43,897 nt of DNA. It comes from Dermatophilaceae bacterium. Lineage in GTDB: Bacteria; Actinomycetota; Actinomycetes; Actinomycetales; Dermatophilaceae. Position numbers and translations under genes: made by a program. Location: NCBI GenBank assembly GCA_014377705.1, contig JACMPC010000036.1, positions 1 to 43,897 of the forward strand, in the 5' to 3' direction. Shown piece by piece: positions 19,185 through 41,612 of the stretch (its first letter is position 1; each line of letters opens with the position of its first letter). The notes under the pieces were generated by a model. It saw only the letters and a list, made by a program, of their open reading frames with translations. It made no database searches and was not told the DNA's origin.

Positions 19185-19214
19185 AGAGCGCTTCAGGCGG
19201 GCGTGGGCATGGGA

Positions 19215-19417
19215 CAGCCCGTGAGGTCTGGGGGTACCAGGGTGCGTTGGACGGTCGCACATCCTCACGGGCTGCGGTGCCTGCATGAGATAGCGGTCAC
19301 CACACCTCGCCCGGCTTCCGATCGCCCGTGGGGGCGGTCGGCAACGGCTGGCCTAGCGCCCAGCCACCTCACTCGTCCGTTGGTCTGTCACTAGCGGACC
19401 ACCTCCTTCCATGTGCA
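19215..19417 (-). ncRNA. Candidate structured RNA of unknown family
   Basis: About 200 bases packed with inverted repeats between the lyase and nitroreductase genes. A perfect 12-base pair (CAGCCCGTGAGG 19215-19226 with CCTCACGGGCTG 19263-19274) closes two inner hairpins: CTGG/CCAG (19228-19240) and GTGCG/CGCAC (19242-19260). This makes a three-way junction. Further hairpins are at 19318-19341 (9 pairs, loop CGTGGG), 19346-19365 (GGCTGG/CCAGCC) and 19375-19399 (GTCCG/CGGAC). A promoter and a short leader ORF at the upper end suggest transcription on the minus strand. I do not recognise it as a known riboswitch, tmRNA, SRP or 6S RNA. Strand and function are inference. Confidence 0.4.
19353..19412 (-). 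CDS. Candidate leader peptide, 19 (or 12) codons
   Basis: A short ORF encoding MEGGGPLVTDQRTSEVAGR then TAG. Two starts are possible: the ATG at 19412, preceded by AGGAG, or the GTG at 19391, preceded by AAGGAGG with a 10-base gap. If the promoter just upstream is right, the transcript begins near 19416, excluding the AGGAG, and the internal GTG giving a 12-residue peptide becomes the better start. The last codons overlap two hairpins of the structured segment, as in attenuation leaders. No downstream gene on this strand explains it, and it could be chance. Confidence 0.35.
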   Translation of the reverse strand: MEGGGPLVTDQRTSEVAGR

Positions 19418-19422
19418 CTCCT

Positions 19423-19451
19423 ACGGTAGGTCGGCAGGTGCGCGGTCGCAA
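19423..19451 (-). promoter_or_regulatory. Candidate promoter for the structured segment
   Basis: On the minus strand TTGCGA (19451-19446) and TACCGT (19428-19423) are separated by exactly 17 bases, a good housekeeping-sigma arrangement for an actinobacterium. Transcription would start near 19416 and run into the leader ORF and hairpins. Confidence 0.4.
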
Positions 19452-21293: not shown

Positions 21294-21466
21294 GACTCTC
21301 AACATCCGCTTGGCAGGAGCGGGGGACCCAAATCTGGGGCGTCGAAAGACGTTCCTTGGGGTGAAGCCCTCCTGGAGATGGACGACGTGAGTCGCCCGTC
21401 GATGTGAGGGCCGGGTGCAATCTCCCTCCCGAACCCGACAGCTGACCTCGTAGGCGCCTGGAGAGG
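21294..21466 (+). ncRNA. ydaO-yuaA (c-di-AMP) riboswitch
   Basis: This leader carries the conserved blocks of the ydaO-yuaA class, the cyclic di-AMP sensor: GGAGCGGGGGACCCAA, CCTTGGGGTGAA, GAGGGCCGGG, CCTCCCGAACCCGACAGCT, then GACCTCGTAGGCG and a final GGAGAGG. CTCTC (21296-21300) can pair with GAGAG (21461-21465) as the closing P1 helix. That 3' arm, GAGAGG, is also the only Shine-Dalgarno-like sequence before the NlpC/P60 start, 10 bases downstream. Ligand binding would stabilise P1 and hide it, so a translational OFF switch is a reasonable reading. In actinobacteria this class commonly precedes cell-wall hydrolase genes. Confidence 0.92.
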
Positions 21467-21476
21467 TTTCTTCACC

Positions 21477-22522: not shown

Positions 22523-22595
22523 TGCCCTCGACTGGATTCGAACCAGCGACCTACCGCTTAGGAGGCGGTTGCTCTATCCCCTGAGCTACGAAGGC
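22523..22595 (-). tRNA. tRNA-Arg (anticodon CCT)
   Basis: A complete cloverleaf of 73 bases on the minus strand. The acceptor arm GCCTTCG pairs with CGAGGGC (one G-T pair), the D arm contains AGCTCAGGGGATAGAGC, and the anticodon stem ACCGC/GCGGT holds the loop CTCCTAA, giving anticodon CCT for the AGG codon. The T arm is GCTGG-TTCGAAT-CCAGT. The discriminator is A, and CCA is not encoded in full (ACCG follows). Confidence 0.95.
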
Positions 22596-41539: not shown

Positions 41540-41612
41540 GGGGCTGTGGCGCAGCTGGTAGCGCACCTCGTTCGCAACGAGGGGGTCAGGGGTTCGAGTC
41601 CCCTCAGCTCCA
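41540..41612 (+). tRNA. tRNA-Ala (anticodon CGC)
   Basis: A complete cloverleaf of 73 bases. The acceptor arm GGGGCTG pairs with CAGCTCC (with G-C and G-T pairs), the D arm is GCGC-AGCTGGTA-GCGC, and the anticodon stem CCTCG/CGAGG holds loop TTCGCAA, giving anticodon CGC for GCG (Ala). The T arm is AGGGG-TTCGAGT-CCCCT. The discriminator is A; CCA is not fully encoded. Confidence 0.95.

Follow-up and report, generated by a model that had tools for sequence, protein, structure and literature searches.

The locus studied here raises the question of what a promoter-like element, a short ORF and a cluster of hairpins are doing on the minus strand between two ordinary genes, with no gene in sight for them to serve. 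It is part of a 43,897-nucleotide stretch of DNA from a Dermatophilaceae bacterium (GCA_014377705.1, contig JACMPC010000036.1), which in its entirety is referred to as the window, and it is flanked by a nitroreductase gene upstream, on the same strand as the RNA, and by a convergent beta-eliminating lyase gene. The original prediction took the segment for an attenuation leader or a regulatory minus-strand RNA of about 200 nt starting near position 19416, and did not recognise an Rfam family in it. This last point was overturned by cmscan against Rfam 15, which identified positions 19416 to 19209 of the minus strand as a full-length match to RF02471 (Ms_IGR-5) with 60.3 bits against a gathering cut-off of 45, covering model positions 1-184 of 184 with both ends present and not cut off. 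The match is the sole one in its genome and is intergenic, and Rfam at E values up to 1 reports RF02471 alone for this RNA, with the 6S and tmRNA models giving no match. The 5′ end of the family falls at 19416, the predicted start, and the predicted size, strand and regulatory type fit both the match and the conserved pairing described below. As to identity there is nothing unusual about the window element: it belongs to a known family, which it resembles in the full-length match above the cut-off, the intergenic site and the 5′ end, and its anatomy is the new part. The Rfam model contains neither the short ORF nor the match to 16S rRNA that were found by the present comparison, and its consensus line lacks the P2 stem and the pseudoknot, both of which show compensatory changes here.

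The primary paper on Ms_IGR-5 is reportedly a study of M. smegmatis. According to the available parts of the respective reports, homologues were detected by RNA-seq in S. lividans (PMC8079986), S. avermitilis (PMC8780764) and M. smegmatis (PMC10454040), and 4 of 58 conserved Streptomyces sRNAs could code for a conserved protein (Moody et al., PMC3765725). In the accessible text of the papers found, no function, ORF or 16S pairing is assigned to Ms_IGR-5.

The promoter-like element is present in the sequence as described, with TTGCGA (19451-19446) and TACCGT (19428-19423) separated by a 17-nt spacer on the minus strand (19423-19451), and its -35 region is moderately conserved in relatives, where T, T and G reach frequencies of 0.71, 0.75 and 0.62 at positions -36 to -34 of 209 loci. 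A generic consensus scan of the window segment found 0 promoters and 0 terminators. The minus strand is predicted to fold more stably than shuffled sequences, both over 19215-19451 (z -2.68; 2 of 200 shuffles equally stable) and over 19202-19416 (z -3.29; 0 of 200 as stable), while the plus strand folds less well (z -1.55; 15 of 200). The perfect 12-base helix enclosing two hairpins that had been noted earlier is indeed in the sequence (19274-19263 with 19226-19215), as are the further hairpins beside it. This helix, here called P3, is a perfect 12-bp stem that, judging from folding and covariation, closes a three-way junction (19215-19274, minus strand) with the hairpins P3a (19260-19242) and P3b (19240-19228), both read from the minus-strand sequence. 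An alternative hairpin, GGCUGGGCGCUAGGCCAGCC, can be drawn on the same strand around the stop codon of the short ORF (19346-19365). Elsewhere in the window, Rfam places a c-di-AMP riboswitch (RF00379, 61.7 bits) at 21297-21470 (+), just 5′ of an NlpC/P60 gene (21477-22256), and two tRNA genes at 22523-22595 (-) and 41540-41612 (+).

Does this RNA serve a downstream gene? The reading as an attenuation leader draws on a leader-like anatomy, as the strong Shine-Dalgarno, short ORF and mutually exclusive stems of the window RNA are also found in the trp, leu and ilv attenuation leaders; however, Ms_IGR-5 differs from these in having no conserved downstream gene. The gene downstream is convergent in the window. 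A crude ORF call on the 144 loci that span 6.5 kb or more placed the nearest downstream gene on the strand opposite to the RNA in 76 and on its own strand in 57, and gave no gene in 11. Among the genes within 700 nt that were examined (50 of 50 on the same strand, 60 of 63 on the opposite one), the commonest Pfam family on the same strand was citrate synthase, with just 5 of 50. Besides, the ORF contains no run of a single amino acid, and most of its residues vary. DtxR, citA and serC occur near the RNA in 30, 21 and 21 of 212 loci, which differ in length, on either side of it and in either orientation. Because the same-strand downstream neighbours have no family in common, Ms_IGR-5 looks like a stand-alone gene and not like a leader. 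The strand mix and the missing common family led us to reject the attenuation leader, which we regard as very improbable, and they bear out the earlier remark that there is no gene for the RNA to serve. As a separate observation, 25 of the 60 opposite-strand downstream genes encode THAP4-like heme-binding proteins and face the RNA.

At E values up to 0.001, RF02471 was found in 36 of the 58 genomes searched as relatives, 247 of 393 genomes of the class and 56 of 296 genomes of the phylum, with the window's own genome counted each time; 31 of the 56 phylum genomes are outside the class, and in 24 of these the match is under the family cut-off. As about 37% of the class genomes (146 of 393) give no match, Ms_IGR-5 is not universal in the class. 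A pattern scan of named genomes returned at least 120 stretches, and Mycobacterium, Mycolicibacterium, Nocardioides, Cellulomonas and Blastococcus are among the matches listed. Of 31 genomes that gave no hit with a pattern blind to GGAAC variants, some contain weak model matches, and a separate search recognised a reduced variant in three (G017 and G018, both with weak model matches, and G028). A reduced variant with GGAAC was also observed in the window's own family (loci L306-L309 and L318), with a shorter 3′ part in L306-L309; these loci nonetheless retain the 16S match and an ORF of 12 or 13 codons. Four genomes (G003, G126, G362 and G420) have two matches apiece, reflecting either duplication or mixed assemblies. 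With the window copy as query, no phage copy was found at E 0.01, and a search of a plasmid collection with L031 gave one relative, on a 2.66-Mb Nocardia farcinica sequence (NZ_LN868939.1, 77% identity). Taken together, Ms_IGR-5 is a widely kept orphan sRNA of actinobacteria.

For the comparison, 240 loci were reduced to 212 by removal of one locus without the core motif (L029) and of 27 duplicates; 112 of the 212 had been collected by a pattern fixing AGGAGGTGGTCC and the other 100 by the covariance model. The core motif was present in 119 of the 120 loci L001-L120. The 194 loci with full ends were clustered to 105, of which 57 were aligned.

The most extensive match near the 5′ end is to the ribosome itself. 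A block of 16 letters is complementary to the entire 3′ tail of 16S rRNA, GGATCACCTCCTTTCT, when G-U pairs are counted, with all 16 positions pairing in 197 of the 212 loci and all but one in the remaining 15. The covariance-model loci, taken separately, behave alike (91 of 100 at 16/16, 9 at 15/16), and so do 36 divergent loci (33 at 16/16, 3 at 15/16). When the block is shifted by 1-3 nt, the mean drops to 7.5-10.6 pairs and 16 is never reached; apart from the 15 unpaired letters, the block varies just between A and G opposite U and between C and T opposite G. In the window this very long Shine-Dalgarno, UGGAAGGAGGUGGUCC (19396-19411, minus strand), pairs with GGAUCACCUCCUUUCU at 15 of 16 positions. 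The good internal Shine-Dalgarno noted earlier in the short-ORF region is present in the sequence. An exact copy of the 16S tail was found in 8 of the 9 genomes checked for it and none in the window's own draft genome, so that the pairing rule is established in relatives. The computed duplex energies with the 16S tail are -25.8 to -30.6 kcal/mol over the 212 loci and -28.6 kcal/mol for the window copy, a value that none of 289,051 sampled 22-nt windows from the loci reached, the best being -24.9 kcal/mol (only the 19,786 with a Shine-Dalgarno-like word were folded). The 13-mer AAGGAGGTGRTCC occurs 28 times in nine genomes, namely as the antisense of 16S tails, in the sRNA of 8 of the 9 genomes, G104 having a variant instead, and at 5 further sites that resemble coding DNA on visual inspection. 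Another anti-16S-like site, in L076, was likewise judged by eye to be an ordinary hairpin and discarded. By complementarity across these loci, the family is shown to possess a 5′ block predicted to pair with the whole 16S 3′ tail.

Downstream of this block, the earlier description of a 12-19 codon ORF stood as to the presence of a short ORF, while its length is narrowed by the comparison, which best supports 12 codons at 19391-19353 on the minus strand (GTG ACA GAC CAA CGG ACG AGT GAG GTG GCT GGG CGC TAG). A stop codon lies three codons past the core GAGGTG in all 211 complete loci (198 TAG, 8 TAA, 5 TGA), and a start codon lies twelve codons before the stop in 207 of 212 loci (103 TTG, 65 ATG, 39 GTG). 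Three further loci (L166, L218, L222) have one extra codon and a TTG one codon upstream, which brings loci with an ATG, GTG or TTG start to 210 of 212; the exceptions are L052 (ATT) and L164 (TCG), and CTG is absent from the start position of the 212 loci. Another one-codon, frame-keeping insertion is found in L318. The pattern behind 112 of the 212 loci fixes GGACRYGTGAGGTG and leaves start and stop free, and the 100 loci collected without it have 99 canonical starts and 100 stops. All but two (L295 and L302) of the 36 divergent loci keep the stop, and at the expected start position these 34 have a canonical start in 22, CTG in 6, ATT in 2, ATC in 3 and none in 1. Possible non-standard starts (ATC, ATT, CTG) were thus observed in 11 loci outside the class (L280, L284, L286, L287, L292, L279, L290, L293 and L296-L298). 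The distance from GGAGG to the start is 10-12 nt, which exceeds the usual optimum. Comparison of these loci shows that a predicted 12-codon ORF with conserved start and stop is a property of the family. Within it, codons 2-4 are the most variable, and codons 8-9 (Glu-Val) are invariant, though the core motif required them.

We then compared the pairing of the RNA in relatives, which had been proposed as a check of the original prediction and was borne out. RNAalifold on the 57 diverse sequences recovered three stems, P1, P2 and P3, with compensatory changes in 13 of 25 pairs, and together these stems beat all 500 shuffles on five measures. P2, formed in the window by GGUGGCUGG (19368-19360) and GCAGGCACC (19284-19276) with 7 of 9 pairs canonical (19276-19368, minus strand), on its own beats all 500 shuffles on four measures, the fifth being reached by 2 of 500. 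Both sides have changed in 5 of 9 pairs of P2 and in 8 of 10 pairs of P3, and covariation of P2 and P3 in the family is thereby shown, as far as aligned sequences can tell. P1 would pair GGUCC (19400-19396) with GGAC of the ORF (19378-19375), placing the start codon in its loop (19375-19400, minus strand). In the 57 sequences 99.6% of its cells pair, yet there is no compensatory change; the 16S match fixes the same letters as well, and we infer P1 as a candidate helix. P0, a pairing of the 5′ CAC (19415-19413) with GUG of the ORF (19372-19370) that comprises 3 bp in the window copy (19370-19415, minus strand), was fully paired at four positions in 193 of 212 loci when the offset was left free, with G-U in 8 and a mismatch in 11. 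On fixed columns, 102 of 500 shuffles reached the combined count of doubly changed pairs in P0 plus P1, and a slide by +2 gave a slightly higher covariation score, 0.100 versus 0.089 unshifted. A P0 helix linking the 5′ end with codons 7-8 is likely, though the comparison supports it only modestly. The residue at codon 7, Arg or Cys, mostly goes with a 5′ end of CACG or CACA. Rfam's own 5′ helix, which joins the Shine-Dalgarno GGUGGU to GCUGCC, pairs in 91.8% of cells of the 57 relatives with 0 compensatory changes and is no better than shuffles. This result questions the drawn structure and leaves RF02471 membership by score intact. The window copy is a weak member of the family, with 15 of 16 positions matching 16S, a 3-bp P0 and two G-G mismatches in P2. 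Many relatives conserve an unpaired GAAUCCA-like stretch just ahead of the 3′ strand of P2, from which the window copy deviates.

A further pairing connects the ORF to the 3′ half of the RNA. In the window, GGAC of the ORF (19378-19375) can form a pseudoknot with GUCC in the P3a loop (19252-19249), spanning 19249-19378 on the minus strand. A P3 stem was obtained for 208 loci, and after exclusion of three with a misplaced P3 (L033, L167, L212), GGAC was present in the ORF of 203 of 205 loci and GUCC behind it in 202 of these 203; the search for GUCC covered all of the 37 nt that follow the eighth letter of the P3 arm, a stretch for which the shuffle rate is 23%. A stricter test is provided by the aligned columns and the folded loops. 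The four pseudoknot columns pair in 57 of 57 aligned sequences, one with a double change. Two departures from GGAC/GUCC suggested pairing, and therefore 341 genomes of one family were searched for GGAU with a pattern that fixed GGTCC. GGAU was found in 26 genomes, confined to three genera (g94, g137, g161) of that family, and upon folding, 25 of the 26 show AUCC in the P3a loop, with the remaining one still able to pair through G-U; as all of them belong to one family, the 25 GGAU/AUCC loci do not stand for 25 events. With GGAU, codon 6 changes from Thr to Met or Ile, and the pairing is therefore kept at the expense of the peptide. The letter before GGAC does not covary with the P3a loop by eye, so that within the class the claim is limited to four pairs, while outside the class five or six pairs are seen by eye, L275 combining CGACC with GGUCG and L276 having a similar pairing with one G-U. 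Covariation across the family thus shows a predicted pseudoknot that joins codons 5-6 of the ORF to the P3a loop.

These results bear on whether the peptide is what the gene is for. A tiny protein gene, whose product would be the 12-residue peptide, with the RNA structure adjusting how well it is translated, would account for a start and stop that lie in frame at almost every locus, for a stop that varies just among TAG, TAA and TGA, for codon insertions that stay in frame and for the invariant Glu-Val, with the reservation on the core motif given above. However, codon 6 tracks the GGAU/AUCC pairing, codon 7 mostly tracks the 5′ end, and codons 2-4 vary most. Since the codons change in step with the RNA pairing, the main product is probably something other than the peptide, and we consider the tiny protein gene unlikely.

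Alternatively, Ms_IGR-5 may be a classical trans-acting sRNA of dual function, with the P3a loop (UCGUCCA), a freed GGCAGUCACC strand or the GAAUCCA-like stretch as its seed, and with the mini-ORF and the long Shine-Dalgarno serving only to couple activity or stability to translation. A stand-alone gene, a stable terminal stem, a GUCC loop in nearly all aligned loci and a conserved, unpaired GAAUCCA-like stretch would all suit such an RNA, but the GUCC loop is already accounted for by the intramolecular pseudoknot, and the longest conserved 5′ match, that to 16S, is not predicted by a seed model. We hold this alternative to be rather unlikely. A structured actinobacterial sRNA of about 200 nt might also bind RNA polymerase in the manner of 6S or Ms1, and Ms1, 6S and CoRP (PMC9130861, PMC11077062) are, in the available parts of these papers, structured actinobacterial sRNAs as well. 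They differ from Ms_IGR-5, which has no Rfam 6S match and carries a conserved ORF; in addition, the polymerase-bound RNAs named in the accessible text of PMC11077062, on S. coelicolor and C. glutamicum, are scr3559, scr0792 and CoRP, the last of which sits between tRNA genes. A role of this kind is highly improbable in our estimate. As for other RNAs that meet the ribosome, tmRNA is a structured RNA with a pseudoknot and a very short ORF, two features in which the window RNA resembles it, and the latter gives no Rfam tmRNA match. The E. coli tisB ribosome-standby mRNA is comparable in that a 5′ structure and a pseudoknot affect 30S engagement, as described in the available part of PMC7708055; tisB is a toxin mRNA, whereas Ms_IGR-5 is a short structured RNA with a 12-codon ORF and a direct 16-nt match to 16S.

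We tentatively favour, at somewhat less than even confidence, the reading that the window RNA is a stand-alone Ms_IGR-5 sRNA that engages 30S subunits, or ribosomes in the act of translation, and has its fold switched by them. GGUCC is common to P1 and the 16S match, and GGAC is common to P1 and the pseudoknot; P1 would therefore be exclusive with both. In the free RNA, the 5′ GGUCC may pair with GGAC of the ORF, holding the start codon in the hairpin loop. A 30S subunit pairing with the 16-nt block would remove GGUCC from P1, and the released GGAC could then form the pseudoknot with the P3a loop. Translation of the twelve codons would subsequently open the pseudoknot and P2, since both use letters of the ORF. 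Ribosome binding and translation would in this way set the fold, and hence the stability or partner-binding of the 3′ half, and the output would be ribosome-dependent, with the RNA either retaining 30S subunits or signalling their availability. Our inference from the shared letters comprises P1, the sequence of steps and what the switch puts out. In the accessible text of PMC4974804, ribosome-protected reads are reported on the M. smegmatis and M. abscessus homologues of Ms_IGR-5, together with the authors' cautions that most characterised E. coli ncRNAs show footprints too and that sedimentation isolates RNPs as well.

A broader and more doubtful proposal is that Ms_IGR-5 is a phylum-wide ribosome-docking RNA. 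The start codon is often weak, being TTG in 103 of 212 loci and CTG, ATT or ATC in some loci outside the class, and pairing with the 16S tail might capture the 30S subunit on a start that is weak in many lineages, while the switch between P1 and the P3a-loop pseudoknot would turn 30S occupancy or translation into a change of RNA state, making the RNA a sensor or buffer of free ribosomes. If true, this would be a kind of riboregulator absent from the available text of the papers found. Should the ribosome reading itself hold, actinobacteria would maintain an RNA devoted to engaging the 16S tail. The comparison yields a corrected structure of Ms_IGR-5 and three testable predictions, namely the 16S pairing, the 12-codon ORF and the pseudoknot, and this new anatomy turns an orphan sRNA into a testable, putatively ribosome-engaging RNA.
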